From assembly GCA_021790195.1 (NCBI GenBank), contig JAJYIF010000026.1:1-41720 (forward strand): a stretch of 41,720 nt of DNA. Direction: 5' to 3'. Position numbers and translations under genes: made by a program. Positions 3,826 through 33,184 of the stretch are shown here, piece after piece. The stretch comes from Nitrospirota bacterium (lineage in GTDB: Bacteria > Nitrospirota > Thermodesulfovibrionia > Thermodesulfovibrionales > UBA9159). The first letter of the stretch is position 1. Every line of letters begins with the position of its first letter. The notes under the pieces are model-generated. The model was given only the letters and a program-made list of their open reading frames with translations. It searched no databases and was not told where the DNA came from.

Positions 3826-5121
3826 ATGGACCTAAAATCGGTTTTGCCGGACTTCCAGGAGTTTCTGACTTCCAAAAAGTTGGCGCCCGCAAAGAACGTT
3901 CCTTATCTCGCAAACTGGGTCAGTCAGTTCCTCGCTTTCTCTAACAGCAGGCCGCAGGCAGACGCAAACGTTCTGATTGCAGAGTTTCTGAACTCGCTTG
4001 AAGCCAACCAAAATATCGACGATTGGCAAATTCGACAGGCGAGCGAAGCCATAGCTCTCTATCTCAACCATTTCAAGGGCGAAGTTGCGAATGCCTTTCA
4101 GTGTGAGCGTAAACTGAAAGCTAACCTTTCCGACAGTAAGGCCCTCTTGGCTGAAATGGAGAGACTGTTGAGGCTGAAACACTTTGCCTACAACACTGAA
4201 GTTTCTTATCTTGACTGGGTTAAGCGCTTCTTCTCTTACGTGCTTGATACAACCAATGGCGACGGGAGGATAGACCTTACGCCTGCTTCTGCCCAGAACT
4301 ATCTCAGTCATCTTGCCATTAATAAGCAGGTCGCTTCTTCAACTCAAAATCAGGCGCTATGCGCACTTCTGTTTCTCTTCCGGGACGTGCTTGGACAGGA
4401 GCTTGGGGATATTTCAGGTATGGTGTGGGCCAAGCGAGGGAAGAAGCTCCCTGTAGTGCTCTGGGTTGAGGAGGTAAGGTCGCTGTTCAGGCACCTTTCG
4501 GGCACTACACATTTGATGGCACAGCTTCTTTACGGGGCTGGTTTGCGTATTACGGAACTCTGCAGGCTGCGCGTCTTTGATGTGGATTTTGAGGGCGGTC
4601 TTATAACTGTGAGAAACGGTAAAGGAGACAAGGACAGATCTACAATTTTTCCCGAGGCTGCGAAAGAGCCGCTTAGTCTTCATCTTCCAGGGGTGAAGGC
4701 CTTGCATGAGCGGGATATTGCGGCAGGACATGGCGAGGTGTATCTTCCGAGCGCTCTCGAAAGAAAATATCCCAATGCTGCCAGGGAATGGAAATGGCAA
4801 TACGTTTTTCCATCTGCGAATCTATCTGTTGATCCCAGAAGCGGCAAAGTGAGGCGTCACCATATGAGCGACAAGGCCTTGCAGGTGGCTGTTTCCGAGG
4901 CGGTTAAGAAAGCAGGTATAACAAAACATGCCACTGTACATACCCTCCGCCACAGCTTTGCCACGCATTTGCTCATGAGCGGCGTGAATATCAGGGAAGT
5001 GCAAAGCCTCCTCGGGCACAAGAACGTCGAGACGACCATGATCTACACACATGTTATGCGCGACATGGCCAACGCGCCAAAGAGCCCACTGGATGTCCTT
5101 TATGAAAATTCGCAGTCATAG
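3826..5121 (+). CDS. intI: Integron integrase IntI, long form
   Basis: 431-residue tyrosine recombinase that joins and excises cassettes at attI and attC. Catalytic residues are visible: Arg241 (GAGLRITEL), a Lys near 265-267 (GKGDKD), His372 and Arg375 (HTLRHSF), His398 (LLGHKN) and Tyr407 (TMIYTHV). The integron-specific insert, which separates IntI from XerC/D, is at about 309-330 ([19 protein letters not shown]). Usual IntI proteins have about 320-340 residues; here about 100 extra residues precede the normal core-binding domain (from about 105) and themselves resemble a second SAM-like core-binding domain (10-83). A G-rich stretch precedes the ATG at nine bases. Intact and apparently functional. 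Confidence 0.95.
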
Positions 5122-10648: not shown

Positions 10649-12256
10649 TTACGCTTTAAGTGTACTGTCAGTGACAGGCAGGAACGCCTGGGGATCGATC
10701 CCCGGGAATATATTGTCCTGACCCTCGATCTCAGAAAGCCTGCCCTCGTCGATCTTCCCCCTTTCGATCTCTTCTTTCAGCCTGAGCAGGCGATGCAGAT
10801 GGGTCCTGACCCTTGTTTCTGCGTATTCCGTCATGACTCCTCTGTTGAGCATGAACGCCCAATCGCTCGCCTGCGCCAGCAGCAATTCCCTTGCGGCCTG
10901 CTTCAGGGCCCGCTGTTTCAGGCCGTTTGCGTCCCGAAACCGCCTCGCAAGATCTTCCATTATTACCGCGCCGCGATGGAGATGGGGGTAGATCCAGTCG
11001 TTGCTTCCGTTGAGCCATACATTATGAAAGCCCTCGTGGCCCCAGCTGGAGGCCGAGGGAACGGAGAGCTGATTGACAGGGTATTCCTCGAGATATTCCG
11101 AAAGCGTGATCATACGGACCGACTTCTGTCCCAGGCATATCTTCCTTATCACGTTCTCCAGCCATAGCGGGCCCTCATGCCACCAATGGCCGAAAAGCTC
11201 TGCGTCGTACGGCGCCACTACCAGCGGCTTGCGGTCCATGTTTTTTGAGAGGAGTCCGATCTTCTGCGACCTGTTGAAGACGAAGTTCCCCGCATGGATT
11301 TCAGCTTTCTTCCTCGCTGCCTCGTGGATGTAGACTTCCTTATTGTCGGTCTTGCCGGTTATGCGGAAATACTTAAAGCCCGTATCGATGCGGATGCCGT
11401 CTCTGTGGATGTAAGGCCTTATGTAATCGAGATCGAGATCATAGGCTATGTCGCGATAGAATTCCCTGTAGTCATGATCGCCGGGATAGCCTTCGGTGGA
11501 GCTCCAGACCTGTTTGGAAGATTCGGGGTCCCGTCCGAAGACGGCAAGGCCCGACGGGCAGTACAGGGGGGCATGAATACCATGTTTAGGCCTGGGCCTT
11601 GCGTGGGTGACGCCATGGGTCTCGAGTATTATGAAGCGGATCCCCAGCTCCTTCAATATAATGTCCAGCCCGGGATAGAAACCGCACTCCGGCAGCCAGA
11701 AGCCGTCGGGCCTTCTGCCGAACATATGACGGTAATTGTCGATGCCGAGCCGTACCTGGGCGCTGACCGCTGATCCATTCAATGCCAGCAAAGGCAGATA
11801 TCCGTGGGTGGCCGCGCTTGCGATGATTTCGATCTTACCTGTATCCTGAAGGCGCCTGAAGGCCTTTATAAGGTCCCTGTCATAACGGTCGAGGAAAGCG
11901 GCGCGCACCTCAATAAGACGTTTATGGTACATGCGGGCGAGCCTGCTGAAAGCGGGTTCCGGCCTTGTCCGTCTGCACTCTTTATCGCCAAGCTCTATGA
12001 GCTTTTCAAGTCTTCTCAAATAGCGCGACTGGAGAAGCTGATCATTCAGCATCGAGGCCAGGGTGGGGGTGATGGATAAGGTAAGCCGGAAGTCGGTTCC
12101 CTGCTCTTCAAGGGTATCGAGGGCAAGGAGGAGAGGGATATAGGTCTCGGTTATTGCCTCGAAGAGCCAGTTTTCTTCAAGGAAACCGTCATGCTCCGGG
12201 TGTCTTACAAAGGGAAGATGGGCATGAAGGACAATCGCCAGATAACCTTTTGCCAC
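10649..12256 (-). CDS. GH57 1,4-alpha-glucan branching enzyme
   Basis: 535 residues, the usual size of bacterial GH57 branching enzymes. It cuts alpha-1,4 chains and rejoins them by alpha-1,6 bonds. The N-terminus, AIVLHAHLPFVRHPE, is the GH57 motif 1. The nucleophile is Glu190 in GFWLPECGFYPG, and the acid/base is Asp351 in APYDAELFGHWWHEG; both spacings fit the Thermus and Thermococcus enzymes. The start is GTG at 12256 with a GGGGGA ribosome site. It is the last gene of the five-gene glucan operon, 33 bases after the DUF4912 gene. Amylase-type GH57 members cannot be fully excluded, but the motif set favours branching. Confidence 0.88.
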   Translation of the reverse strand: MAKGYLAIVLHAHLPFVRHPEHDGFLEENWLFEAITETYIPLLLALDTLEEQGTDFRLTLSITPTLASMLNDQLLQSRYLRRLEKLIELGDKECRRTRPEPAFSRLARMYHKRLIEVRAAFLDRYDRDLIKAFRRLQDTGKIEIIASAATHGYLPLLALNGSAVSAQVRLGIDNYRHMFGRRPDGFWLPECGFYPGLDIILKELGIRFIILETHGVTHARPRPKHGIHAPLYCPSGLAVFGRDPESSKQVWSSTEGYPGDHDYREFYRDIAYDLDLDYIRPYIHRDGIRIDTGFKYFRITGKTDNKEVYIHEAARKKAEIHAGNFVFNRSQKIGLLSKNMDRKPLVVAPYDAELFGHWWHEGPLWLENVIRKICLGQKSVRMITLSEYLEEYPVNQLSVPSASSWGHEGFHNVWLNGSNDWIYPHLHRGAVIMEDLARRFRDANGLKQRALKQAARELLLAQASDWAFMLNRGVMTEYAETRVRTHLHRLLRLKEEIERGKIDEGRLSEIEGQDNIFPGIDPQAFLPVTDSTLKA

Positions 12257-12289
12257 GTTTTCGATCCCCCTTTATATTCCGGACGCACA

Positions 12290-13126
12290 TTAAACGGCAA
12301 AAAGCCGCTTCCTCTTGGGGAGGGCCCGGCGGGCTTCTGAGGATATGCCGGGGATGAACGCCCTCTCGCCCATTTCGGCAAAATCAGGCCCGTGCTTTTT
12401 AACATGAAGAGATGGGGCCCCGGAAGCACCGGGTCGTCCGTGTTCCGCGAGGCACGGCGGAATTGCCGGAGCATCACGGGGAATATCTTTCCGGACAAGG
12501 AACGGCAAGTTCTCGACAACTTCGTAGACGCCTTTCACCAGCATATAGTTCGCCTCGCCTTCTTCGGCGCTCATGGCGGGAGGCGTGTGCGCAAAGTTCG
12601 ATTTCGCTATAGGATGGAACTCTCCTCCGCCGGTTCTGAAGCCCAATTCAGCGAAATAGGATTTCCCGGGTCTCCATAGGTTGACATACCAGTTTCCGGC
12701 CTGGAGGTCGATGTTTACATCAAAGGAGCTTTTTGAGTTCGTACCGTCAAAGACTACGCCTGTTACGTCATAAAACCTCAGCACAGAGTCAAAAAGGGCG
12801 ATGTCCTTTCCGGTCGTCCTGCTCAAATCCTCAAGGGCGGAAGGGGTCACTTCCCAATAAGCGTGGATCAGATAGGGCCCTATCGGGACCAGGGCCACCA
12901 TGGTTTCTCCATACGTCGACGGGAGCGCTGCGGACCTCGATATCTGGGCCGGAACCGGACCTGCCGACGTTACGCTCCTTCTTGTTTCTTTTTCGGTTTT
13001 CAGGACTCCTGCCGACCGGCGCGCAGTGGACCTCTTAATTCCCTTTGGAGCAGACACCTTTGATCGGGGTTTCCTGGTCTTTTGCTTTTTTTCTTTTTTC
13101 TCTTTGTTATTCAGCTTTCTTTTCAT
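12290..13126 (-). CDS. DUF4912 domain protein
   Basis: 278 residues. The first 60 are extremely basic and low in complexity (Lys/Arg/Ser), probably disordered. The middle (about 70-195) is a DUF4912 domain, recognisable from GPYLIHAYWEVTPSAL and the later GNWYVNLWRPGKSYFAELG. The fold is thought to be a beta-sandwich, and the aromatic residues suggest a ligand- or glucan-binding role. DUF4912 genes often neighbour GH57 enzymes, and this one lies between the GH13 gene and the branching-enzyme gene. A binding or scaffold role in glucan metabolism is inference. No clear ribosome site is seen. Confidence 0.8.
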   Translation of the reverse strand: MKRKLNNKEKKEKKQKTRKPRSKVSAPKGIKRSTARRSAGVLKTEKETRRSVTSAGPVPAQISRSAALPSTYGETMVALVPIGPYLIHAYWEVTPSALEDLSRTTGKDIALFDSVLRFYDVTGVVFDGTNSKSSFDVNIDLQAGNWYVNLWRPGKSYFAELGFRTGGGEFHPIAKSNFAHTPPAMSAEEGEANYMLVKGVYEVVENLPFLVRKDIPRDAPAIPPCLAEHGRPGASGAPSLHVKKHGPDFAEMGERAFIPGISSEARRALPKRKRLFAV

Positions 13127-13214
13127 GGACAGACGCAGAAAAACTCGGATATTTCCGAAAATGCTTTATTAAAGTTTAAGTGATAGACAACCAAAAACTC
13201 AAGGCGTATCATGC

Positions 13215-15560
13215 TCAGTCTTCGGGAACGGAGTCCCTCGATGTAATAAGCACTTTTCCCTGGCCAGGCATGAGGTCGTAAGAAAAAGGGGACGGAATAT
13301 AATCCATCCGGTATTCCGGAGATATATCGATCAGCGGGGCCCCGGCCTGAAGATACCTTTGCAGGGAACCTGCGTAGAAACGCTGTTTGTTGTAAATGTC
13401 CTTGTTGAATATGAGCAGCGACTCCTCAGGAGAGCTTGCAGAGGCCTTCCACACCACAAGGACCTTAGGGTTGTCAGGACTTGGGAATTCCGTAGGGGCG
13501 TCTTCCTGAAAGATCAAATGCCCGGACTTGATCATGTTGACCTCGGCGATGAAAGGCGTAAGGTCGATGCCCGTCTCTTCCCAGTCTTCCGGCCTCGTCT
13601 TAACGACATGGAGCCTTTTGCGGAACCCGAATTCGAACCCGATCGGCATCATGACGCCGGCGGAAAACAGGGCCGAAAAAAGATAGCGCTGTTTGAGTCC
13701 GTCTATATTGCCGTTGAGCTCCTCGCAAAGCCTGACCGTATCATGGCTTTCGGGGAAACTGATCGAAGGCGCTATCTCCCGCGTGAGCGCATATTGTTGT
13801 ATCAGCCACTGGCTCTCGAAGTCCCACCATTTGGAGCTGTTGAATATGTAGTCGAAACCCGCGCTCGCAGTCTTCCTCGTCAGGTCCGGGGTCGTGCCGA
13901 GAGTCTCGGCAAGGAAGAACAGGCCGGGATATGATTTTCTCGCTTCCCTGATGAGCCTCTCCCAGAGGCCGCCCTGGACCTGATAGGCCGCGTCACACCG
14001 GAATCCCTTAAAGCCGAGCTCCGCGAGGAATTTGATTACTTCGAGGAAGAAGTTAAAGAGCCCTTCCTTGTCCCTTGTGTTCCGGTGATCGAATTTTGCC
14101 AGGTCTTTCCAGACCACTTTCCTGCCGTTTTCATTTGCATAAGGGTTTGCGACCCTGCCGCCCTCCCACAGGAACCATTCGGGATGCGACTTGAGCAGCG
14201 CAGAATCGACGGAGCAATGATTGATCACAAGGTCCACCATCATCCTGAGCCCAAGCCTTTCGGCGGCTTCTATGGCCTCCTTCGCCTGCGCTTCAGGAGG
14301 CTTTGGGCTTTCGGCATCCAGAAGCAGGGGATTGAAACTGAAATAGTCCTTTATCGAATAGATGCTCCCGGAAGGGCCCGGCAGTTGAACAGGATTGACA
14401 AAGACCCAGTTGAAACCCATTCGGGACGCCCTCAGGAGGTGGTCCTCCCATTCTGAGAATTTCCCAGCAAGGAGCGGGAACAGATTGTATATAATCATCA
14501 GGCGCTCACCTTTGAAGACCTTTTCTTTCTTCCCGCAGCTCTTCAGCAGGAGCCGCTGGTTCTCGCAGAGTGAGGAGAGCCAGAAATTCATCCTCTCCGC
14601 GTTTCCCTTATCTGTCCAGTGGTCGAAGAGATAAGAGGCGTTGCCGAGCGGAAGCCTTCCATCGCGGGGATGGATCTCAAGGGTAAAGGACAGGAGATCG
14701 GGGCCTGCAAGCGCCAGGGAATCGCCGACGATCCTCGAAAGCCCCGAAGGACCGAACATCGTATCGAGGTGGCTCCTGCCCTCGTATTTGAAAGGAAGGC
14801 GTATCTTGTCGAGGAAGCCCAGGTGGTCTGATATGCCGAAAGGGCCCTTCCAAAGAGGGTGAGCGTCGTGGAGGTGAAAATGCAAGGGCTTGCCGAGACC
14901 GCTGATCTCGCGCGCCATATATAATACGACCTCCACGGCAGATCGCAGCGAACCCTGCATATCTTTGATAATACCGGGCAGACGGGGATCCCCCGGAGCA
15001 AACGCAAATATATCTTCTCCAGGCCTGATGCGGGAGAACTCGCTCCCGGCCTGGCGGAGTCCCACATGTCCGATATCCAGACAAGCGCTTATACGATCGA
15101 GCCCCTGTATCTCCCTGAAGAGGTCTATGTAGGTGTCAGGCTCCAGACCGGCTGCGTATTCTATGAACAGAAGAGGCGCTCCCCGGATTTCTTCTAATCT
15201 CGGCGCGAGGTCGCGGAGGATTGACAGGTATTCTTTAAAGCGGCCTGCGATCTCGGCCTGATCATGGACCACCATCCCGAAAATCCTGTCTTTGTATCTT
15301 TGGGCAAACTCGATTATGAGCTCGCGGCGGCGGCGGTCAAAGAGATCGGCATTCCTTGGAAGATGGATTATCGCCGGAGTTTCAGGGGAGGGCATGAATT
15401 TCAAAAGCCAATCGGCTGTCGCAGGCGTCTCGGCATAGATCTCTGCTCCCAGACCGGCCTCCCTGAAGCGAAGCCCCGCCAGCTGAAGAAGCGCGTCGTC
15501 GCCCTCTATCCTTTTTTCGAAAAGCGCAAGGATGCGCGGACATCGTAAAAGATTGTTCAT
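13215..15560 (-). CDS. TIM-barrel / GH13 alpha-amylase-family fusion
   Basis: 781 residues in two parts. Residues 1-345 resemble the xylose isomerase/AP endonuclease IV TIM barrel and keep likely metal ligands: Glu134 (FIEYA), Asp162 and His165 (CLDIGH), His229/His231 (HFHLHD), Glu295 (TLEIH). Residues 350-780 are a GH13 barrel with the VINH region I (445-448) and all three acids: nucleophile Asp523 (GFRCDAA), Glu552 (FLAETLG), Asp607 (ESHDTV). The exact GH13 reaction is not clear; hydrolysis, transglycosylation or GlgE-like maltosyl transfer are possible. The start overlaps the upstream stop (ATGA) with AGGAGGGG before it, so the pair is translationally coupled. Confidence 0.87.
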   Translation of the reverse strand: MNNLLRCPRILALFEKRIEGDDALLQLAGLRFREAGLGAEIYAETPATADWLLKFMPSPETPAIIHLPRNADLFDRRRRELIIEFAQRYKDRIFGMVVHDQAEIAGRFKEYLSILRDLAPRLEEIRGAPLLFIEYAAGLEPDTYIDLFREIQGLDRISACLDIGHVGLRQAGSEFSRIRPGEDIFAFAPGDPRLPGIIKDMQGSLRSAVEVVLYMAREISGLGKPLHFHLHDAHPLWKGPFGISDHLGFLDKIRLPFKYEGRSHLDTMFGPSGLSRIVGDSLALAGPDLLSFTLEIHPRDGRLPLGNASYLFDHWTDKGNAERMNFWLSSLCENQRLLLKSCGKKEKVFKGERLMIIYNLFPLLAGKFSEWEDHLLRASRMGFNWVFVNPVQLPGPSGSIYSIKDYFSFNPLLLDAESPKPPEAQAKEAIEAAERLGLRMMVDLVINHCSVDSALLKSHPEWFLWEGGRVANPYANENGRKVVWKDLAKFDHRNTRDKEGLFNFFLEVIKFLAELGFKGFRCDAAYQVQGGLWERLIREARKSYPGLFFLAETLGTTPDLTRKTASAGFDYIFNSSKWWDFESQWLIQQYALTREIAPSISFPESHDTVRLCEELNGNIDGLKQRYLFSALFSAGVMMPIGFEFGFRKRLHVVKTRPEDWEETGIDLTPFIAEVNMIKSGHLIFQEDAPTEFPSPDNPKVLVVWKASASSPEESLLIFNKDIYNKQRFYAGSLQRYLQAGAPLIDISPEYRMDYIPSPFSYDLMPGQGKVLITSRDSVPED

Positions 15561-18500
15561 GGCCCCTCCTGTAGCCGCGACTGGACCAGATATACCGTAT
15601 CTCCCGAGACGGCCCCCTCTATGTCCTGAGGACTTTTCATGGCGTCTTCGATGAAACAGCCTATCCGCGAAAGCAGGGAGCAGAGATGGTCCCTGAAGGC
15701 ATCGTCTCTTGAGAATTTGATCGATGAGTAAGCCACTGTCCTGTGTGCCACTCCCCCCTTCGGGTCAGGCCACGCCGCTTTGCTGAAGCTGGCAAAGGCC
15801 AGCAACCGTCCCCTTCCGCTATCTTTTTCCAGGACTATTTGATAAGGCACGCCGGGGGTCGCGCCTGAAGTCAGGGTCTCGCCGAGGCCGACCGCGAGTT
15901 CGACATAGATTTCTCCTCGGGCACGATTCAGAGGATTGACGGTGTGCATGACAAAGGAAAGATCGGGGACGATCATCTTTTGTATGAGGACAGCCATATG
16001 GGCCGTGTTATGGGGGATGCCCGAGTTCTGTCTGCCCTTGACTGCCCGGTCGTTCCAGAGCGATGCCCATACGGCGCGGACAGCTCCTGCTGCTTTCAGG
16101 CGCGATACATTGGCGAATGAGTCATAGAGCCCAGCCCCTGACAGCATATCCCCATCTTCGCAGTTAGAGCTCGATCTCACCATCAGTCTTTCATCTTTGC
16201 CAAACTCCTTATAGATGCCGTCCAGGATCTCGGAAGGCACATGGATTTGACTTATCATCTTCCTGATTATTTCGGACAACATGCGGTCGTCCTGCGGCGG
16301 CCCATTGATCAAGCGCTTATGTTCTCTTTCCAGGTCAGGACGAGAATGAAGGCACGCGTCCAGGACGCCGAAAGGTATCACAAGCCCCTTCGGCGTCCTG
16401 AAGCCCGCTCCCTCTCTTTGCGAAAGCTCTTCAAGCTTCCTGGCCCCGAAGGCCTTATAGCCCCCCGTTTCCGGAGTGACACGGTCCAGAGCGAGCAATA
16501 CCGGCCTGCGGGGAAGCACCGCAGGGGACGGCTCGACATGCTTTCTTTCCTCCCGTGTGACACTTTCTTCCGCCTTCGCTGCCCCGACCATGGAGGAGAG
16601 CCTGAGGGCCGCATCCTCGGAAGACGCATCGAGCATGGCCTGTTTCCCTGAATAGGTTTTCAGGTCCGAAAAGAGATCTGCATCGTCACATGCTGCAAAG
16701 ACTATTCTTCTTTGTCTGGCCCTTATCGCAAGGTGAGAGAGGACGGATGTTGCGCCGGACGCGACAATGCCGACGGTGTTTAGCGGGATCTCCTCGCAGC
16801 CTTCGATGTTATCAACCAGAACGATCGCTGGCCCGTTTCCGGGGTTTGAGAAGTCCCCGATACCGGAAACTGAAACGACGCGGCCGGAGACCCTTCCGGG
16901 AGAGATAACCTCCCACGGAGAGAGTGAGGCCAGGCACCTGACCTTTGTTGAGAGAAGACCGACGAGTCTGGAAAGCTGAAAGACAAGGTGCCTGCGTATA
17001 TCGGCTTCTGAGAAGACCTTTACCGAAGCCTCCGGGACCTTGAGTGCCCGGCCCAGTTTGGCGGCCCTCTCCGGAAAGAGTTCGAGGACCTTTGCGCAGT
17101 AAGTCTCCACAAGTCTCCTGCACCTGTCAACCGTTGCCTTCAAGCGCAACAATTGTTCGCGGTCTTTATGATCGAAACCGGCAGACCATAATTTCAATTC
17201 GGCATCTATGGCCTCGCACTCCTCGACATCGAATCCGCTGAGACGCAGATTCTCTATCGAAAGGGAGAGGGATTCAAGCGCCGGACCCCAAGGCAAATCT
17301 CCTGCAGCACCAAAATGATTTATCAGGCGGCCCGCAAGTACGAATGAAAAGTCCTCCAACCCAATGTCCAGAAGCCGGAGCCTCTGCGAATCAGAATCTT
17401 TGCTTGTTCCGAGCCTTCTGTCGAGTTGAATGCGGATATCGGTCAGAACCCTGAAGGTTTTCAAAACCTGTTCTGGCGAGTCAGGGGTCTTTCTGAAAAG
17501 GAGGAAATCGGCTATCAGGTCCTTTTCTATCTCAGTGCCCTTTCTCGATAATGTCTCAAGCTGTTCGTCCAGGGAAAGGGCATTAAAGAATTCCTTAAGC
17601 TCTTCATGGAACCTCCTGAAATCCGCGACAAAGGAAGGCGGAAAGTCTGCGCCGCTCGCCGTTATCTTTTTCAGCAGCGCCTCTGAAACCGCGAGGTCCT
17701 CGGGTCCTGCGGAGCGGTGCAGTTTATTCTGAAGAGTGGTCTTTATCTCCTTTTTCAGCTCCTGAGATATATCGCTTCTGTGAGCTATATTTCGAATGAG
17801 GGTCAAGGGTTCGGACCTCAAAAAGACACTGTCAAAGGACGGCAGCCAGGGGAGAATCTTTCTCAGGATAAAAGAGTTTTCGGGAGTATTGTCCTTCATG
17901 AGGCACTCATAAATCTTTTGCGATATCCTGGCGTGATAGGACGGGCGGTGATGCCCTCCGTCCTCTTCGCAAGGTATCTCGCGCGTGCCCATGAAGCGCA
18001 GATAGATCGCGATATAGACGAGCCGGTCGAGATCAAGCGCCGGCGTATCGCATACGGACTTCCGTATCCATTCGAGTCTTTTCCTCCAGCTCAGATACTG
18101 TCTGTTCGCCCCGGCTATGCTCGCAGCGAAATCCCGGGTCTCAGGGTCTTCTCTTTCAGGAAGCCTGCCGGTCATCTCAAGAAGCCGCCTGCGCGCCTCG
18201 TCGAGCAGCTCCGGGGGGTGCGGCCATTGCTCAAGGATGATGGAGCCCGAGAAAGCGTGGCCCTTCAGGCGCTCAAGGAGGCCCTCGACTCCGGAGGGGT
18301 CCTTTTCCGCCGGACCTGTAAAGACCGTCAGGTGGCTGTCATGGTCTCCATAGTTTTCGTGCATATGAAGATGGACTATCGGCACCTCCCGGCTAAGAAG
18401 GTCGACGTATTTCAGGTAGTCGTTCCGGGTCCTCCAGCAGAGGTTGGCATGTCCCGTGTCGAGGCACATGCCGGTGGCAGAAACATCGACGGAACTAGGA

Positions 18501-18973
18501 GAGCGCAGGACCTCGAACAGTGCATTGATATCCTCGGGTGTCGTGTCTATGGTGTTTTCGATCGACAGTCTGATGCCGGCTCTTGAGAGAGATTCTATCA
18601 GGGGGCTGATCGCCTCGACGTACGGTCCTGCTCCCTTATCCGGGCAATAATGGATATTGAAAAGCCCGGCCCCGATGTCCATCGCAAACTCGATCTCCTT
18701 CACGAATGGCTCGCCTCCGTCCGAAAATAGGTCTGACCTAAGCGAGGCGTGAACCGAGAGTGAGATATCTTTTTCGATAGCGGTCTTCCTTATAGCTTCG
18801 CGCATATCCTTCGGGATCTCCCCGACCGTCCATCCGGCTCCTGACTCTTTTTTGTCCGGGAACCATTCGAAGGCATCGAACCCGTGGGCCGCAGCGTATT
18901 CAAAAGGGGCTGTCACGGGAAAGGCCGAAGAGGCGGTCTGGTTGCCTATCCGGATATGTCCTCCCTTAGCCAT
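15557..18973 (-). CDS. TIM-barrel / PWD-type glucan dikinase fusion
   Basis: 1138 residues from the ATG at 18973, which overlaps the upstream stop. Residues 1-270 are a xylose-isomerase/endonuclease-IV-like barrel with likely metal ligands Glu139, Asp172, His175, His201/203 and Glu248. The rest follows plant phosphoglucan water dikinase (PWD, GWD3): PWLPSFDSVFL, then a segment ending QNKLHRSAGPEDL, then the phosphohistidine domain with His747 in SVLSHLAIRARQ, then the ATP-binding domain with RLMVRSSSNCEDGDML, VWASLWNDRAV and DIEGAV. Such enzymes move the beta-phosphate of ATP through His to a glucan; PWD acts on glucan already phosphorylated. The plant enzyme has a CBM20 where the barrel is here. 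Confidence 0.88.
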   Translation of the reverse strand: MAKGGHIRIGNQTASSAFPVTAPFEYAAAHGFDAFEWFPDKKESGAGWTVGEIPKDMREAIRKTAIEKDISLSVHASLRSDLFSDGGEPFVKEIEFAMDIGAGLFNIHYCPDKGAGPYVEAISPLIESLSRAGIRLSIENTIDTTPEDINALFEVLRSPSSVDVSATGMCLDTGHANLCWRTRNDYLKYVDLLSREVPIVHLHMHENYGDHDSHLTVFTGPAEKDPSGVEGLLERLKGHAFSGSIILEQWPHPPELLDEARRRLLEMTGRLPEREDPETRDFAASIAGANRQYLSWRKRLEWIRKSVCDTPALDLDRLVYIAIYLRFMGTREIPCEEDGGHHRPSYHARISQKIYECLMKDNTPENSFILRKILPWLPSFDSVFLRSEPLTLIRNIAHRSDISQELKKEIKTTLQNKLHRSAGPEDLAVSEALLKKITASGADFPPSFVADFRRFHEELKEFFNALSLDEQLETLSRKGTEIEKDLIADFLLFRKTPDSPEQVLKTFRVLTDIRIQLDRRLGTSKDSDSQRLRLLDIGLEDFSFVLAGRLINHFGAAGDLPWGPALESLSLSIENLRLSGFDVEECEAIDAELKLWSAGFDHKDREQLLRLKATVDRCRRLVETYCAKVLELFPERAAKLGRALKVPEASVKVFSEADIRRHLVFQLSRLVGLLSTKVRCLASLSPWEVISPGRVSGRVVSVSGIGDFSNPGNGPAIVLVDNIEGCEEIPLNTVGIVASGATSVLSHLAIRARQRRIVFAACDDADLFSDLKTYSGKQAMLDASSEDAALRLSSMVGAAKAEESVTREERKHVEPSPAVLPRRPVLLALDRVTPETGGYKAFGARKLEELSQREGAGFRTPKGLVIPFGVLDACLHSRPDLEREHKRLINGPPQDDRMLSEIIRKMISQIHVPSEILDGIYKEFGKDERLMVRSSSNCEDGDMLSGAGLYDSFANVSRLKAAGAVRAVWASLWNDRAVKGRQNSGIPHNTAHMAVLIQKMIVPDLSFVMHTVNPLNRARGEIYVELAVGLGETLTSGATPGVPYQIVLEKDSGRGRLLAFASFSKAAWPDPKGGVAHRTVAYSSIKFSRDDAFRDHLCSLLSRIGCFIEDAMKSPQDIEGAVSGDTVYLVQSRLQEGP

Positions 18974-21900
18974 CCTGCAGTCCAACCTGGGGACGGGTCT
19001 GCACTACGAAGTATTTGCCCTTGGAGAAGGCCCCCTCTATGTCCTGAGGGTATTTCATCGCACCTTCGACAGTCTCGCCTATCGCCGCAATCTTATTCAG
19101 GAGCCGCCTCCGGAAGTCGTCATCCCATAATAGGGGGTCCGAAGTATAATCCAGAACCGCTCTTCGGGGCTGAGGCAGGACAAAGCTGTCATAAAGGCCT
19201 GCCCCTGCATAGTGCGCCAGATCTTCACCGTTTGAATCGGAACGGAAGATCAGTCCTCCTCCGTACAAGCCGATGCTCTTGCTCGGGAAGGACAGGAGAT
19301 GCAGTTCCCCGCTCCCCTTTCCATAAGTAAAACCCATCGCCTTACCCGGATAGTTGGCCGCCAGGGTCTCGCCGAGGCCGAGGACCACTTCCGAGTAAAT
19401 CTCGTCTTTCTCACCCGTAAGAGGGTTTATGGTATGGATGACGAAACTGTAGTCCGATTCGACTGCCCTCTGGACGAGCACGGACATTGACAGGTCCTCA
19501 TGTGGGATGCCGTTTGCCTTCCGGCTGAGATATGCACGCTCATTCCATTTAGAGCCCCATACCCGCTTGATGCAGGTCCATGCCTCGTCCCAATTCACAG
19601 GCAAGGCCATTCCGGCCCCTTTCATGACCTCAGAGAGTGATGATATAAGTATTTCAGGCGACTTGAGCTCGAGGATGAGCTTCTGAAGCCCGGCAAGCGC
19701 TTCGACCCGCTTATCTTCTCCTCTGTCTATCCGCGCGAGCATCTCCTCATATTTCTCAGCAGTCTCCCTGTTCATTTCGTCCGAAAGGACTTTTTCAAAG
19801 ACACCGAAGGGCAGCGCCACAGAGGCCGGAATATTTATCCATTCGGGCAAGCGGGCGCGGACACCCTTCAGCTTTGTGGATTTATATCCGACATTCTGCT
19901 CGCTGAAATCCCTCATAGGGACCGCATAGGCGGTAAACCCGTGTCTTGCCAAAGAACGGACAGCCACGCGCTGCTGTTTGATAACGCTTAACTCTTCGCT
20001 GCTTTCTTCAAAGACAACGTCGTTTGCCCCGCCTACTCTCATCTTCAATATGCGCCCGCCAAAGGCCCTCAGTCGGTCGATCGTATCGCTGTTATAACAA
20101 GAAGCAAAGAGAATCCCTGCATTTCTTGCCCGTATGGCGAGGTGAGACAAGCCGTCTATGGCCTCCGGCGTAATGATCGCGGACACCCCGCCCGGTATCT
20201 CTTCGTTACCCGTTATCTTATCAACAATGAGGATCACGGGTCTTTCAAAACTCTTTCCCTGGACCGACTTAAGCGAATCTGCCGTATTTACCTCTCCGAC
20301 TGCCTCTCCTCTGCTTATCAGCTGCCAATCGCCGAGGTCAGCCTCTTTCCGCAATACAGGGTCCAGGTAGCGCATGACCAGGGAAAGGGCGAACGCGGGA
20401 CGACCCCGCATCACCTCTTCGCTGAAGAGACCGATTGCCCATGGGTCTGCGCCAAAGGCATTGCCGAGGTACACTGCTTTCGGCTGGACGAGCTGATAAT
20501 AGCGGTCCGTCAAAGAGCCGGCGGCGCGTCTGATGCGGTCAAGGACCGCCTCCGCATGAAGCGGCCATTGCCGCCCCGAACCGGCCGTCTCTCCGAGGCG
20601 GCCCCAATGTCTGAGACAATAAAGGAGCTCTTCGTCATTGTCGGAGAGAGAGAGATTATCGAGCATAACCGAAACAAGCTCCACCAGTTCATCACGGCTT
20701 GATTTCCGGCCGAGCCGTTGCTCAACCATATTGCGCAGGAAATCCTCCAGTGCTATGTCGAGGAACAGAAGGTCCCGCACTTCATGGGAAGGACCCTCAA
20801 GTCTTCCGGAAATGTATCTGCGCGCCCCGGTTATCTTCTTTGCAAGCGAAGGCAAAGGCGTCCCGGGGTCGTCCCGGTGGGACCAGATGAAGTCCATCAG
20901 GCCGTTCATCGCGGCGTCCAAGAGCCGCCTCGATGAATTGATTGCGATTCCGAGGTCGGCGCCGGAATGCACCTCTTTAAGGATGCCCAGGAAATTCTGA
21001 AAATCATATATCAGGGCATCTTTGAGATGGGGGATAAAATCCGGTTTGGACCTTATCGGACGCTCATAGCCTTCGAGCCTCTCCTTTGTTATGCCGCTCT
21101 GCTCGAGTCTCTCGTAGAACCTGTCGGCGTTGCCGTTGCTTTTCAGGAATTCGAGATAGGCCTCGCATATGGCTACATCATCGGGCGTGGTATTGTTGTG
21201 GAGCTTCTGGTGCCATTCCTCCATGAAATGGCCCGAGACCTCCTTGATGCTGTGGCGGTGCATTATATTCAGGACCTCGTCTCTCACGCGCTGTGCATTG
21301 CTGCCGCGTCCGAGGGTCGTCATCATCAGTCTGATCATCCCGCGCCCTTCCCGTTCTTCCGTGTAGCGGCCCGCGAGTTTGAGCGTGAGGCGTTCCATTG
21401 CATGGCCGAGCTCCCTCGGTTTTGTGTTGTAGTTCCTCTGCCAGTCCAATTGCCTGATGGCCGAATAACGGAGCCACACGAAGATAAGGGCGAGACCTTC
21501 AACATTGTTCAGTGGGACCTTGTCCAGAAGTTCATAACAAAGGTCGAAGCGGTGCATCAGGGTCCACGAACCGCGGCCTACTTCCTTATCAATGATCTCG
21601 TTCGCAATGCCTTCAAGCAAACGGTCGTCCAGTGAAGGCCCGGAAGCCGCCTGCGCCGGGATCTCGATCCTGTAATTGTTCCCGCGATTGTTGTCCCAGC
21701 GGTTTTCCCCGGGGAAGAAGAGCACGAAATCCATAAACCTGAAGCCGAAGGAAAGGTCTAACCGGAATGAGATCTCGTCTTTGCCGTCTCTTCTTATGAA
21801 AGGGGTCTGTACGGCTGAATGGTCGAATGCGCGGCTGCCTTCAGGCCACACCGCCTGAGGCGGGACCTGCCAGGCGCCGTAAGGACGCTGCCGAAGTCCC

Positions 21901-22022
21901 CAATGAAGCAGCGAACCCCTGCCTTCATCCGTCCGGATCAGGACCTCAACGACATCTTCATGCAGGCCCTTTTCTATGAGGAGCTCAATGCCGCTTTCCG
22001 ATGTGATCTTTTCCGTACCCAT
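18966..22022 (-). CDS. Plant-type alpha-glucan water dikinase
   Basis: 1018 residues. An N-terminal starch-binding-like beta domain (about 10-122; LLHWGLRQRP, AVQTPF, RWDNNRGNNY) precedes a helical region with MEEWHQKLHNNTTPDDVAI (267-285), a hallmark of plant GWD1. The phosphorylated His627 is in DGLSHLAIRARNAG. The C-terminal ATP-binding domain carries VWGSKWNERAY, LSMSVLVQ, LGLGETLAANYPGKAMGF and FRSDSNGEDLAHYAGAGLYD in the plant order. GWD transfers the beta-phosphate of ATP to C6 of glucose units in crystalline starch. It is the first gene of the glucan operon, and the next start lies inside its last codons. No ribosome site is seen; the transcript may be leaderless. Confidence 0.92.
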   Translation of the reverse strand: MGTEKITSESGIELLIEKGLHEDVVEVLIRTDEGRGSLLHWGLRQRPYGAWQVPPQAVWPEGSRAFDHSAVQTPFIRRDGKDEISFRLDLSFGFRFMDFVLFFPGENRWDNNRGNNYRIEIPAQAASGPSLDDRLLEGIANEIIDKEVGRGSWTLMHRFDLCYELLDKVPLNNVEGLALIFVWLRYSAIRQLDWQRNYNTKPRELGHAMERLTLKLAGRYTEEREGRGMIRLMMTTLGRGSNAQRVRDEVLNIMHRHSIKEVSGHFMEEWHQKLHNNTTPDDVAICEAYLEFLKSNGNADRFYERLEQSGITKERLEGYERPIRSKPDFIPHLKDALIYDFQNFLGILKEVHSGADLGIAINSSRRLLDAAMNGLMDFIWSHRDDPGTPLPSLAKKITGARRYISGRLEGPSHEVRDLLFLDIALEDFLRNMVEQRLGRKSSRDELVELVSVMLDNLSLSDNDEELLYCLRHWGRLGETAGSGRQWPLHAEAVLDRIRRAAGSLTDRYYQLVQPKAVYLGNAFGADPWAIGLFSEEVMRGRPAFALSLVMRYLDPVLRKEADLGDWQLISRGEAVGEVNTADSLKSVQGKSFERPVILIVDKITGNEEIPGGVSAIITPEAIDGLSHLAIRARNAGILFASCYNSDTIDRLRAFGGRILKMRVGGANDVVFEESSEELSVIKQQRVAVRSLARHGFTAYAVPMRDFSEQNVGYKSTKLKGVRARLPEWINIPASVALPFGVFEKVLSDEMNRETAEKYEEMLARIDRGEDKRVEALAGLQKLILELKSPEILISSLSEVMKGAGMALPVNWDEAWTCIKRVWGSKWNERAYLSRKANGIPHEDLSMSVLVQRAVESDYSFVIHTINPLTGEKDEIYSEVVLGLGETLAANYPGKAMGFTYGKGSGELHLLSFPSKSIGLYGGGLIFRSDSNGEDLAHYAGAGLYDSFVLPQPRRAVLDYTSDPLLWDDDFRRRLLNKIAAIGETVEGAMKYPQDIEGAFSKGKYFVVQTRPQVGLQDG

Positions 22023-22057: not shown

Positions 22058-22301
22058 ATGCTCTTATTTGCAGGATATCGGTCTTTGTGATACATTTCTT
22101 TTAAAAACGCAATCAATATCCTACGCTGCAACTTCTACTGGGGAAGCAGGAGGGGGGTGCAGTTCGTCTTTGACGACATCGAGAAAGCGTACCGCCTGTT
22201 GGACACGGCGAAGGAATTATTGACAGCCTCAATGTAGCATCTGCAGACTGTCCGCCATACCTGCCCTTTTTGGACCTGCCGGAGCTATAATAAGTCAAGT
22301 G

Positions 22302-24260
22302 ATGAAAAAGGTCCTCCGGAAGCCCCGAAAGCTGACTACGAAATTCATGCTCGGACTCGGGATAATCCTTCTGTGCGCCGTCAGTATAGTCTCGCTCCTT
22401 TTCTATGAGCATCTGAAGAGCCTCTATATAAAAGAAACATACCAGAAGACGGACCTCGTGCTGAGACATATCGATGCGACTATGGAATACGTCCGCGACG
22501 AGTTGAGACCGCAGATGTTCCATGTGCTGCCCAAAAAAGAATTCATCAGAGAGGCGATGTCCACGTCATTTGTCAATAAGGGGATCATGAAAAGATTTGC
22601 GAAGAGGTTCCCCGATTTTATTTACCGGAGGGTCGCCATAGACCCCATCAACCCGGCAAACAGGGCTGACGACTTTGAGGCGCGCTTCATACGGGAGTTT
22701 TCCGGGAACAGGGGCGGCAGGAACGAATGGAAGGGCCTGATAACTAAGGGGGACGGCAAGGAGTATTTCGCGCATCTTAAGGCCATCTACATGGAGGAGC
22801 AGTGCGAGATGTGTCACGGAGATCCCTCGAAGGCCCCGCTGTCTCTGATCAAGCGTTACGGGAAGGGTCACGGCCACTTCTGGAAGGTGGGGGACGTGGT
22901 AGGTCTGGAATCCGTCGCCATCCCTGTGGACGAGACGTTCTACCATATACGCCAGGTCGCCTTCTCGATTTTTCTGCTGGGACTGGCAGGGATGACCATC
23001 CTCTTCCTGGTCCTCAATTATTTCTATTATGCGATCGCGGTGAGGCCCCTGAAAAAGGCGAGCGCCTTCTTTCAGTCAATCGCCGGCGGACGGAAGGGCC
23101 TAGATGTGAGGTTCGACGCGAAAGACCACGATGAGATATCGGAGCTCGCGGAGTCTTTCAATCTGATGATAGACAACCTGAAGAAGTCCCAGGAGGAGCT
23201 CACCGTGTCCGAGATGAAATACCGCCGCATCTTCGAAGGTTCGAAGGACGCGATAATCGTGGCCGATTGCCAGGGGTTTATAATAGATATAAACAATTCC
23301 GGCGCGGAACTTTTGGGTTTCGCAGGAAAGCCCGATCTGGTAAATAAGGCGTCCATACACGATTTTTTTGCGAGCAAGGGATGTCTCGGCGAACTCCTTG
23401 GCCGCATGGAAAAGGAAGGCTTTGTGAAGGACTACGAGGCCGTGCTCAGGAAAGAGGACGGGAGCGAGATACACGTCCTGATCAGCGCCACTTACCGGAA
23501 GGACGAGCACAACGACGTCTGCGGCTACGAATGCATCTTCAAGGACATTACCGAGAGAAAGAGGATGGAAGAAGAGATAAGGCAGGCGGACAAATTGGCC
23601 TCGATCGGCCGGCTGGCGGCGGGCGTGGCGCACGAGATCAATAACCCCCTTAGCATCGTGCTCGGATATACCGGGCTCCTGATGAAGGAGAGCGAAGGTC
23701 AGGCAAGGGAAGACCTTGCGGTGGTCCAGAACAATGCCGGACTCTGCAAGAAGATCGTCGAAGACCTGCTTAACTTTGCGAGACAGACAAAACCGAGATA
23801 TGAAAAGGCCGACATCAATGTCTTGATAGAGTCCGTCGTCTCTGTCGTTGAAAACAGGTTCTCCGGGAGCGGGATGAGCATAGTGAGAGATTACGATCCT
23901 CTTTTGCCGCAGATCGTCGTGGACGTGAACAAGATAAAACAGGTCGCAATGAACCTTCTGCTGAATGCCCATCAGGCCCTGCAGCCGGGAGGAAAAGTGA
24001 CCATTTCGACCAGCTATGACACTACGCGGGACGGTGTATCGATCCTCTTTTCGGACACGGGAAAGGGCATCCCTGAAAGCATCCTGGGCCGCATATTTGA
24101 GCCGTTTTTTACCACAAAGGAGCCGGGAGAGGGTACCGGGTTGGGCCTTGCTGTGACTTATGGCATAATCAGGGAGCATAAGGGAGAAATAACGTGCGAA
24201 AGCGAGGAGGGCAGGGGCACGGTATTCAGAATCTGGCTGCCGGGGCTTGACCGGTCATGA
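22302..24260 (+). CDS. Haem-sensor histidine kinase (DUF3365-HAMP-PAS-HisKA)
   Basis: 652 residues from ATG 22302 (a GTG lies one codon earlier). Membrane helix about 18-36; periplasmic DUF3365/Tll0287-like domain to about 215 with a haem c motif CEMCH (Cys168, Cys171, His172); second helix about 218-245; HAMP to about 297; PAS about 303-420; HisKA with phospho-accepting His444 ([12 protein letters not shown]); HATPase with DTGKGIPE and [10 protein letters not shown]. The domain set senses redox state or a ligand through periplasmic haem. The stop overlaps the start of the response-regulator gene (ATGA), so this is a cognate pair. It is divergent from the glucan operon. Confidence 0.93.
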
Positions 24261-25666
24261 AGATGTCGGTGCTGATAGTCGACGACATGGCGGACATGCT
24301 GAAGTTACTCGAAAGGGTCGTCCGCAAAGAGCTGGGCGTCAATGTGCTCACCGCAGGCAGCGGAGAGGAAGCCCTCAGGATTGTTTCCGGCAGTGCGATA
24401 AGCATCGCGCTTGTGGACATGAGGATGCCGAGGATGGACGGCATGGAGCTTCTCGGCCGTATCAGGAAGACGGACGACTCCGTCATCGTCATTATGATGA
24501 CCGCCTATGGAAGTATTGAGGACGCCGTCGAATCGCTTAAGCTCGGGGCGTATGATTATATTACCAAGCCCTTCGACGAAGAGAGGCTGCTCCATACTGT
24601 CAGAAGGGCGATGGACCATCAGGCCCTCATTCAGAAAAACCGCGCTCTCGAAAGAAGGATCAGGGAGAAGGAAACTCCCGAGAGTTTTATCGGCGCCTCT
24701 CCTGCAATCAGAAAGCTCGTCGAAACCATACAGCTCGTTGCGAAGACCGACGTGACCGTGCTGATCACCGGTGAAACAGGAACGGGCAAGGAACTTACCG
24801 CGAGGACGATACACGCATTGAGCAGCAGGGCTGACAAGCCCTTTGTTACTGTGAACTGTCCTGCGATACCGGAAAACATATTGGAGAGCGAGCTTTTCGG
24901 CTACAGGAAGGGCGCTTTTACAGGGGCCGCGCAGGACACGGAGGGCCTCTTCCATGCCGCCCGCGAGGGGACTATCCTTCTCGATGAGATCGGAGACATA
25001 TCCCCGGTGCTTCAGGCAAAACTCCTAAGGGTGTTGCAGGAGAAGGAGATAAAACCGCTCGGTGACAACCGTTCCTACAAGGTGAATGTGAGGATACTCG
25101 CCTCAACGAACCAGAACCTCGCGGATAAGATCGCCTCGGGCCTGTTCAGAGAGGACCTTTATTACCGGTTGAACGTCGTCACGGTCCATACGCCTTCTCT
25201 AAAGGAGGTCCCGGAAGATATACCCCTCATCGCAAACCATTTCATTTCGCTTTATTGTTCGGAGCTAGGCATACCCCAGAAGAAGTTTTCCGGGGAGGCG
25301 CTGAGAAGGCTGGCCTCACGGCCATGGGGAGGCAACGTCAGGGAGCTCCAGAACGAGATAAAGAGGGCCGTTATATTTTCGAAGGAAGATACGATAAGCG
25401 CGGACCATTTAGGCGGTGAACCGTTCATGGCGACCCTCGACGAAAAGGACATTCTCGCAGCCGGAAGCCTTGGATATAAAGATGCAAGGAGAGAAGTCCT
25501 TGCGAAATTCAATGTCAGCTATGTCGCCCGTCTGCTTGAGGACTCTGAGGGCAATGTCACAATGGCCGCTAAAAGGGCGGGCATTGAAAGGCAGTCCCTC
25601 CAGCACCTGATGAGAAAATACGGCATCGACGCGGACAACTTCAGAAAGACCGCAAACAAAGAATAG
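24257..25666 (+). CDS. NtrC-family sigma-54-dependent response regulator
   Basis: 469 residues. Receiver domain 1-120 with acidic pocket Asp9/Asp10, phospho-acceptor Asp54 (ALVDMRMP) and Lys104 (ITKPF). AAA+ domain about 142-375 with Walker A GETGTGKE (172-179), sigma-54 contact loop GAFTGA (219-224) and Walker B ILLDEIGD. C-terminal Fis-type HTH (EGNVTMAAKRAGIERQSLQHLMRKYG). When phosphorylated it should activate sigma-54 promoters. A near-consensus sigma-54 site lies 118 bases after its stop, in front of the rhodanese-exporter operon, which is therefore the obvious target. Confidence 0.95.
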   Translation: MKMSVLIVDDMADMLKLLERVVRKELGVNVLTAGSGEEALRIVSGSAISIALVDMRMPRMDGMELLGRIRKTDDSVIVIMMTAYGSIEDAVESLKLGAYDYITKPFDEERLLHTVRRAMDHQALIQKNRALERRIREKETPESFIGASPAIRKLVETIQLVAKTDVTVLITGETGTGKELTARTIHALSSRADKPFVTVNCPAIPENILESELFGYRKGAFTGAAQDTEGLFHAAREGTILLDEIGDISPVLQAKLLRVLQEKEIKPLGDNRSYKVNVRILASTNQNLADKIASGLFREDLYYRLNVVTVHTPSLKEVPEDIPLIANHFISLYCSELGIPQKKFSGEALRRLASRPWGGNVRELQNEIKRAVIFSKEDTISADHLGGEPFMATLDEKDILAAGSLGYKDARREVLAKFNVSYVARLLEDSEGNVTMAAKRAGIERQSLQHLMRKYGIDADNFRKTANKE

Positions 25667-31330: not shown

Positions 31331-33184
31331 ATGTCGGTTATGGCTGAGAATAAAGCAGCGAGGGGGATCCCGGATATCTATTCATCCTACCTGTTCGCGG
31401 CCTGGACTGTTCTCATTCTGGTTTCCGTGCTTTGGAACTTCTATCAGACCCGGCAGGACACGAAGGCCAAGGCCCTCCTGGAAGCCGAGACTATCCTGGA
31501 AACCAATCTCGCCTACCGGAGGTGGAACACGATGCATGGAGGGGTCTATGCGCCGGTCAGCGAAAAGAACAAGCCCAATCCTTACGTCATTGCTCCAAAC
31601 CGGGACGTTACGACGACGACGGGCCTGCGCCTGACTCTCATCAACCCCTTCCAGATGACCAGACAGGCCTATGATCTTCTCAAGGAGCAGATGCCCCTCA
31701 CAGTCATCAACAGGACCATCAGCCTGCGGCCGTTGAACCCGGCTTCCGAGCCGGACGCCTGGGAGAGGGACAAGCTTCTGGAGTTTGAAAGAGGCGCGGT
31801 CGAGGCCCATGAGATCATAGCTGTCAACGGAGAGCCGTATATGAGGGTGCTCAAGCCCTACATAACGGTCGAGGGATGCTTGAAGTGTCACGGCGTACAG
31901 GGCTATAAGGTGGGAGATATCAGGGGGGCCATGAGCATTTCCGTACCTATGAAGCCATATCTCGACAGCGATAAGAAGACGTTCGGGACAATAATCCTTA
32001 CGCATCTTTTGATCTGGTTTGCGGGAGTCGCGGGGATCTTGACGCTTTCCCGCAAGGTCCGGAAGAAACAAGAGAGTCTTGTAGAGAGCGAGTGGAAGTT
32101 CAGGACCCTTTCCGACTTCACCCAGGACTGGGAGTACTGGATCAAGGACAACCTTGAGATAATATACATGTCGCCTTCCGCAGAGAGGATAACCGGCTAC
32201 ACTGCTCAGGAGTTCATTGACAATCCTAAGCTGCTCGACGAGGTCGCACACCCGGAGGACGACCTCTCATGCCGGAAACACACGCAGGACCTGAGGTCCG
32301 CGTGTTACGAGAAGGAATTCAGGATATTCAATAAGGACGGCGAGATGCGGTGGCTGTCCCATATCTGCGAGCCGATTTATATTGAAGGCCGCTTTTTCGG
32401 AAGGCGGGTAAGCAACCGCGACATCACAGACAGGAAGGTCATGGAGGGCCAGCTGATCCAATCACAGAAGATGGAGTCTCTCGGTCTGCTTGCTGGAGGG
32501 ATAGCGCATGATTTCAGAAATCTGCTGACCGTAATGTCCGGGACTGCCGAGATGCTTCTTGACGAGCTTGGCGGCGAGGACCATAGGGCGAGACAATACG
32601 GCGAGCAGATAGTTGCCGTCTGCGGAAAGGCCCAGGAATTGCTCAACAGCCTTCTCGCCTTCAGCAGAAAACAGCCTTTGAGCCTCAAGCCGGTGAATAT
32701 TAACGAAGTAGTGAAGAACGCGTTGCCGCTTCTTGAGCCTCTGGCGCACGAGAACATCAAGGTCGGGGCGGAGCTGCAGACCTTCGGCGAACTCATTTAT
32801 GCCGACCCCCTCCAGCTGGAGCACGTTATCATCAATCTGGCGCACAATGCCCGCGATGCCATGCCGCAGGGAGGAACGCTTACTTTCAGGACCGCCCTGG
32901 CATCTCTTGAACCCGGCTACGCCGAACAGCATGAAGTGAGGCAGGGGAAGTACGCTGTGCTGGCGGTCAGCGATAGCGGGCAGGGGATAGAGAGCAAGGA
33001 CCTTCCGCACGTATTCGAACCCTTCTACACTACGAAGGAGTCAGGCAGGGGGACCGGGCTGGGACTTTCGATGTCATACGGAATCATCAGACAGCACGGA
33101 GGCTTTATAACTGTGGATAGCCTCAAAGGCCGGGGGACCACCTTCAAGATATACCTGCCTGTTCACGAGCAAAGAAAGACTTGA
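31331..33184 (+). CDS. Orphan haem-sensor histidine kinase (DUF3365-PAS-HisKA)
   Basis: 617 residues. Membrane helix about 18-37; periplasmic DUF3365 domain to about 215 with haem c motif CLKCH (Cys183, Cys186, His187); second helix about 219-240; PAS with PAC about 255-372 (WLSHICEPIYIEGRFFGRRVSNRDITDR); HisKA with His393 in GGIAHDFRNLLTVM; HATPase with DSGQGIES and GRGTGLGLSM. Unlike the first kinase it has no HAMP domain, and no regulator gene follows, so its partner is encoded elsewhere. The core HDFRN has Arg where HDFNN is usual. The start could also be the ATG at 31340. Confidence 0.92.
   Translation: MSVMAENKAARGIPDIYSSYLFAAWTVLILVSVLWNFYQTRQDTKAKALLEAETILETNLAYRRWNTMHGGVYAPVSEKNKPNPYVIAPNRDVTTTTGLRLTLINPFQMTRQAYDLLKEQMPLTVINRTISLRPLNPASEPDAWERDKLLEFERGAVEAHEIIAVNGEPYMRVLKPYITVEGCLKCHGVQGYKVGDIRGAMSISVPMKPYLDSDKKTFGTIILTHLLIWFAGVAGILTLSRKVRKKQESLVESEWKFRTLSDFTQDWEYWIKDNLEIIYMSPSAERITGYTAQEFIDNPKLLDEVAHPEDDLSCRKHTQDLRSACYEKEFRIFNKDGEMRWLSHICEPIYIEGRFFGRRVSNRDITDRKVMEGQLIQSQKMESLGLLAGGIAHDFRNLLTVMSGTAEMLLDELGGEDHRARQYGEQIVAVCGKAQELLNSLLAFSRKQPLSLKPVNINEVVKNALPLLEPLAHENIKVGAELQTFGELIYADPLQLEHVIINLAHNARDAMPQGGTLTFRTALASLEPGYAEQHEVRQGKYAVLAVSDSGQGIESKDLPHVFEPFYTTKESGRGTGLGLSMSYGIIRQHGGFITVDSLKGRGTTFKIYLPVHEQRKT

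Follow-up and report, generated by a model that had tools for sequence, protein, structure and literature searches.

Results

Gene content of the locus

The window, by which we mean the whole 41,720-nucleotide stretch of Nitrospirota DNA analysed here, carries five close-packed genes on its minus strand (22022→10649), which encode, in this order, a GWD1-type α-glucan, water dikinase, a PWD-like dikinase, a GH13 protein, a DUF4912 protein and a GH57 protein. The ORF coordinates, which confirmed all five ORFs of an earlier sequence-only reading in their places, give overlaps of 20 bp between the GWD and PWD genes and 4 bp between the PWD and GH13 genes, followed by gaps of 88 bp and then 33 bp. 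Given the common strand, the two overlaps and the two short gaps, the genes most likely form a single operon. That reading had not included two TIM barrels, both on the minus strand: TIM-A, a xylose-isomerase-like barrel fused to the N-terminus of the PWD-like protein (aa 1-290; 18116..18985), and TIM-B, a divergent second barrel that forms aa 1-345 of the GH13 protein (14520..15560).

Upstream of the GWD operon and divergent from it lie genes for a sensor histidine kinase of the Tll0287 type (haem) with PAS/HAMP (22299-24260, plus strand) and for a sigma-54 response regulator (24257-25666, plus strand); a second Tll0287-type kinase is encoded at 31331-33184. Scanning the window for sigma-54 promoters gave two matches, fewer than expected by chance, neither of them in the intergenic stretch before the GWD gene. 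A phage-type integrase gene (3826-5121, plus strand) lies near the beginning of the window, where the GC content is lower.

The catalytic part of the GH13 protein (13215..14519, minus strand) is hDGE-amylase-like, matches Pfam hDGE/GH13 and has Asp523, Glu552 and Asp607 in place. With 61-73% identity across phyla it is more conserved than its partners, and it is probably a glucanotransferase or an α-glucan hydrolase. The DUF4912 protein (12290..13126, minus strand; Pfam E=1e-29) adjoins GH57 in other loci as well and is possibly a glucan-associated accessory; at one locus (L069:15580-17280), DUF4912 is fused to a glycosyltransferase. The last gene (10649..12256, minus strand) encodes a putative GH57 1,4-α-glucan branching enzyme with Pfam matches to Glyco_hydro_57 and BE_C, the residues Glu190 and Asp351, and matches to NCBIfam branching protein families that lie below the curated cut-offs. 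The organism's own genome also contains two strong GT5 (glycogen-synthase-type) matches, a full-length phosphorylase (1124 bits) and one weak single-domain DSPc protein (204 aa, 37 bits); a long SEX4-type DSPc protein was not found in it.

The two dikinases

The GWD1-type protein (18966..22022, minus strand; 1018 aa) consists of an Ig_N_CWD1 domain (aa 6-121), a central domain (~131-560), a phosphohistidine domain (566-677) and an ATP-grasp domain (~690-1018), with Pfam matches to Ig_N_CWD1 (7e-19), GWD1_pHisD (5e-33) and PPDK_N. Its motifs HQKLHNNTTPDD at residue 271, YKSTKLKG at 713 and FRSDSNGEDL at 926, as well as the catalytic His627, bear out the GWD1-type features and positions proposed earlier. 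In a profile search, the solved central domain of plant GWD1 (9ha9) matched residues 141-561 with E = 7e-92, which is far beyond chance, and the solved GWD1 structures 9ha9 and 9qvi both match the protein at E<=3e-91. The N-terminal starch-binding domain that characterises GWD1 is represented by one Ig_N_CWD1 here and by two stretches in the homologue at locus L061. The catalytic column is His in all 73 GWD and all 59 PWD-like homologues that could be aligned there, and central-domain identity to plant GWD1 is ~41% for the bacterial GWD and ~23-30% for the PWD-like set. A tree of 122 central domains, obtained by a quick search with no bootstrap and with GWD1 as the single plant sequence (9ha9, taken from its profile alignment), separates 64 bacterial GWDs plus plant GWD1 from 57 PWD-like sequences with an SH-aLRT of 100. 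Within this sample, plant GWD1 branches outside the group of all 64 bacterial GWDs (SH-aLRT 89), which disfavours a recent transfer. Judged by its central-domain identity, its side of the split, its N-terminal domain and its catalytic His, the GWD1-type protein is a genuine GWD.

In the PWD/GWD3-like protein (15557..18985, minus strand; 1142 aa), TIM-A is followed by a central domain (291-680), a phosphohistidine domain (691-794) and an ATP-grasp domain (851-1137); the Pfam matches are AP_endonuc_2 (1e-18), GWD1_pHisD (9e-25) and PPDK_N (1e-36). It carries QNKLHRSAGPEDL at 419 and VRSSSNCED at 936, and its catalytic residue, His751 when numbering begins at the TTG, is the His747 reported earlier together with the PWD-type motifs, since that count began at an internal ATG. 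The motif QNKLHR[SC]AGPED occurs in 65 of 69 PWD-like sequences and presumably resembles the QNKLHR motif of plant PWD. In the tree, whose single plant sequence is GWD1, this paralogue forms a separate, fully supported clade on a very long branch from the GWD clade. The second dikinase probably acts like PWD. CBM20, a feature of plant PWD (PMC6805951, PMC8703398), was not detected in the protein by the Pfam scan, and the AP_endonuc_2 barrel stands in its place. The 'full plant motif order' that the sequence-only reading had ascribed to both proteins consequently holds for the catalytic parts and fails for the rest of the PWD-like protein. We use the label 'PWD-like' because the comparison covered GWD1 as the single plant sequence and because CBM20, a defining feature, was not found.

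The TIM barrels

Among 26 TIM-A sequences, the residues H79, H112, E143, D176, H179, H205/H207/H209, D216, H218 and E252 are invariant, and in the AlphaFold model (pLDDT 88) they lie at the C-terminal ends of strands 3-8. We compared them with the nine metal ligands of E. coli endonuclease IV (EndoIV), which are, after Hosfield 1999, H69, H109, E145, D179, H182, H216, D229, H231 and E261, and whose letters were checked against the E. coli sequence. All nine have counterparts in TIM-A (H79, H112, E143, D176, H179, H207, D216, H218 and E252), the columns of H69, H216 and E261 having been set by hand and by strand order at places where the alignment programs were off by a gap. The E. coli epimerase UlaE is without counterparts of H112, H179, D216 and H218; in single-sequence alignment, UlaE gives TIM-A a higher overall score than EndoIV does. 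The best profile match of TIM-A is MJ1311 (3wqo; E=2e-14).

Profile comparison (E=9e-10) identifies TIM-B as a homologue of TIM-A. The TIM-B residues that are invariant in 24 sequences (H66, H99, E134, D162, H165, H227, H229, D245, H246 and E295) are placed at beta-3 to beta-8 of an AlphaFold model with a pLDDT of 94.5, in a pattern that resembles EndoIV with no direct sequence match to it, and the TIM-B profile gave no match at E<=1 to PDB sequences. Structure searches with both barrels returned the xylose-isomerase-like fold and ranked MJ1311, (viral) AP endonuclease and ketose epimerases almost equally, so that the fold alone does not decide the function of the barrels. The endonuclease IV-type site suggests phosphoester hydrolysis. 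A phosphoester hydrolase of the EndoIV fold outside DNA repair has been described in CbiR (PMC7733943).

Distribution and co-occurrence

A scan of 84,980 GTDB genomes for the PWD central domain gave 61 loci, a lower bound given the two peptide patterns used, and two of these loci were confirmed over part of the query only. They belong to Nitrospirota, Desulfobacterota and other deltaproteobacterial groups, Planctomycetota (including Scalindua and Anammoxibacter), Verrucomicrobiota and Gammaproteobacteria; with at least five phyla represented, the PWD-like gene is not a one-off. The PWD gene was called in 58 loci and is fused to TIM-A in 48 of them, with GWD at the same locus in 38 and TIM-B in 35, the missing partners being partly due to contig ends (10 and 11 loci, respectively). 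One locus of Candidatus Anammoxibacter (L099) has two copies of TIM-A, of which one is part of a PWD fusion and the other is a separate gene next to GWD and GH13.

GWD scored above the cut-off in 39 of the 396 Nitrospirota genomes, the phylum of the window. All 12 PWD-positive genomes of this phylum are also GWD-positive, and 27 of the 39 GWD-positive genomes are without PWD; furthermore, GWD1_pHisD was matched in all 37 PWD-locus genomes searched, most of which had a second GWD-strength match. PWD is essentially confined to genomes with GWD, consistent with the dependence of plant PWD on GWD. Among 289 Verrucomicrobiales genomes, Luteolibacter marinus NBU1238, named as a strain and not as a metagenome assembly, is the only one with GWD above the cut-off and TIM-B. 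Genomes of family f8 are mostly without TIM-A and PWD, and three of them (G386, G392 and G146) each have two divergent GWD copies (L046/L051, L047/L060 and L058/L059).

The barrels follow the dikinases. By Fisher tests, which ignore shared ancestry and which the patchy spread over families and phyla makes conservative only in part, the association across the 396 Nitrospirota genomes is 2e-42 for TIM-A with GWD (33 of 39 GWD-positive vs 0 of 357 GWD-negative genomes), 4e-16 for TIM-B with PWD (9 of 12 PWD-positive vs 0 of 384 PWD-negative genomes) and, within GWD-positive genomes, 1e-6 for TIM-B with PWD, TIM-B being found in none of the 27 that are PWD-negative. TIM-A scores are bimodal: the 33 genomes reach >=159 bits, and the sugar isomerases of the background stay at <=63 bits. 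In ~15 of the 33 genomes TIM-A does not adjoin GWD, so the co-occurrence is not due to linkage. In family f9, the unlinked TIM-A lies beside GH13 and a glycogen-synthase-type GT5; its neighbours in family f7 (NmrA, antiporter and tRNA synthetase) gave no functional hint. TIM-B was present in 41 of the 48 genomes that carry the remaining loci of the PWD scan, in several of them on a different contig, and is directly fused to PWD at L098:1-3987 and L116:8987-12886, the L098 reading frame comprising PWD, TIM-B and a TIM-A truncated at the contig end. Five GWD-positive genomes of family f8 are without TIM-A and two PWD-positive genomes (G154 and G174) without TIM-B; neither barrel is obligatory, and in these genomes either other phosphatases serve or the barrels do something else. 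GH13 tracks GWD less strictly (24 of 39 GWD-positive and 2 of 41 GWD-negative genomes), and part of family f7 either lacks GH13 and the barrels or has them at unlinked positions.

Discussion

In plants, GWD phosphorylates starch at C6 and PWD then at C3 before degradation, and glucan phosphorylation by these two enzymes has been ascribed to plants and algae. The bacterial gene set reported here is real, conserved and surprising, and its GWD and PWD-like proteins are very probably glucan dikinases. The bacterial GWD resembles plant and algal GWD1 (EC 2.7.9.4) in its central domain, in Ig_N_CWD1 and the GWD1 phosphohistidine domain, in the placement of FRSDSNGED after the ATP-grasp core and, in ~1160-aa bacterial forms such as that of L061, in a tandem Ig_N_CWD1. 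In contrast to the plant enzyme, it is encoded in an operon and has no transit peptide, and this copy has a single N-terminal domain instead of the tandem pair. The PWD-like protein shares with plant PWD/GWD3 (EC 2.7.9.5) that it is a GWD paralogue with the same catalytic domains which co-occurs with GWD and has not turned up in its absence; however, it has an endonuclease IV-type TIM barrel at the N-terminus and no detected CBM20. Its nesting in GWD genomes is consistent with a C3 phosphorylation that would need prior C6 phosphate. In a literature search that fell short of most subscription journals, we found no papers on bacterial GWD or PWD or on a bacterial glucan phosphatase.

We propose the following hypothetical cycle, in which (i) GWD would place phosphate on the glucan, at C6 by homology; (ii) the PWD-like enzyme would next phosphorylate the pre-phosphorylated glucan, at C3 by homology; (iii) the phosphate would make the polymer accessible to GH13 and to the glucan phosphorylase whose gene lies at another place in the genome, and GH57 would branch the glucan; (iv) both barrels, TIM-A as the companion of GWD, here joined to PWD, and TIM-B as the companion of PWD, here joined to GH13, would strip off the phosphate before GH13 and phosphorylase act, which would allow breakdown to go on. 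According to this scenario, which we favour with some reserve, the operon would encode a bacterial, plant-like cycle of phosphorylation and dephosphorylation on a storage glucan, in which EndoIV-fold enzymes replace SEX4/LSF2. The sequence-only reading is thereby borne out in part: the kinase-phosphatase cycle to which the two barrels point was no element of it, and the semi-crystalline, starch-like form that it proposed is one that the glucan may or may not have. The kinase part of the cycle is well supported. For the phosphatase part, we infer from fold, metal ligands and co-occurrence that TIM-A and TIM-B are a first and a second phosphoglucan phosphatase, a proposal to which we give about an even chance. 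The barrels would fill the same step as SEX4, LSF2 and laforin; those are dual-specificity phosphatases, whereas TIM-A and TIM-B are metal-dependent TIM barrels of unrelated fold. TIM-A shares fold and nine metal ligands with the group of endonuclease IV, MJ1311 and CbiR, but the barrels are coupled to glucan dikinases and not to DNA repair or cobamides. More generally, activities, C6 and C3 positions, phosphatase role and physiology are inferred here.

The superfamily of these barrels consists mostly of isomerases and epimerases, and TIM-A and TIM-B could accordingly be enzymes of this kind acting on phosphorylated sugars released from a glucan on which the dikinases do act. The Pfam AP_endonuc_2/xylose isomerase-like fold, the many ketose 3-epimerases in the Foldseek and VIA results and the better E-value of UlaE over EndoIV point in this direction; the invariance of the nine EndoIV ligands in TIM-A, including the four missing from UlaE, and loci that show no evident pathway for an epimerised glucose phosphate argue against it, and we consider such a role unlikely, though a serious contender. 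We assign a similarly minor share of probability to a PWD-like enzyme that is a GWD paralogue with another acceptor, such as an oligosaccharide or a glycan other than starch or glycogen, and not a C3 phosphoglucan kinase. The undetected CBM20 and the very long branch between the clades, in a tree whose single plant sequence is GWD1, would fit this reading, but the protein sits with GWD and α-glucan enzymes in five phyla, is essentially limited to GWD genomes and has in 65 of 69 sequences a motif that presumably resembles that of plant PWD.

More fundamental objections concern the origin and the identity of the dikinases. GWD is described as plant and algal, and a 2019 study reported no clear GWD homologue in the cyanobacterium Gloeomargarita (PMC6805951), both of which would speak for a recent plant or algal transfer or for eukaryotic contamination. 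Such an origin is nevertheless highly improbable given the position of plant GWD1 outside the 64 bacterial GWDs at ~41% identity, the operon with its overlapping genes, an arrangement repeated in dozens of genomes, and the glutamyl/glutaminyl-tRNA synthetase and two-component genes that adjoin it on the same contig. That the dikinases are PEP synthase/PPDK-type enzymes acting on pyruvate, a grouping that the sequence-only reading had named as fatal to its proposal, has the PPDK_N domain and NCBIfam PEP synthase matches in its favour. These matches are confined to the ATP-grasp part and fall far below the curated cut-offs, a PEP/pyruvate-binding C-terminal domain is absent, and the GWD central domain and GWD1_pHisD match; we rejected this identity, whose probability is negligible, because the match is limited to the ATP-grasp part, and the proteins side with GWD, not with PPDK or PEP synthase.

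In summary, bacteria seem to possess a control step that has been regarded as specific to plants and algae. With both paralogues adjoining in one operon and in at least five bacterial phyla, the origin of the GWD/PWD pair becomes directly testable, and any ancient transfer of GWD may have run in either direction. The bacterial pair offers soluble, intron-free enzymes for this family, for which a 2026 review (PMC12892837) still lacked any full-length structure, and the presence of the gene set in the cultured strain Luteolibacter marinus NBU1238 makes an experimental test practical. The widest reading, namely a new class of EndoIV-fold phosphatases with one member per dikinase, a complete bacterial cycle and a GWD/PWD duplication older than, or shared beyond, the Archaeplastida, is tentative and in our estimate falls a little short of even. 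If the barrels are phosphatases, they would carry out a known step in a new way, and the fusion of a kinase and a phosphatase acting on a storage polymer would be unusual.
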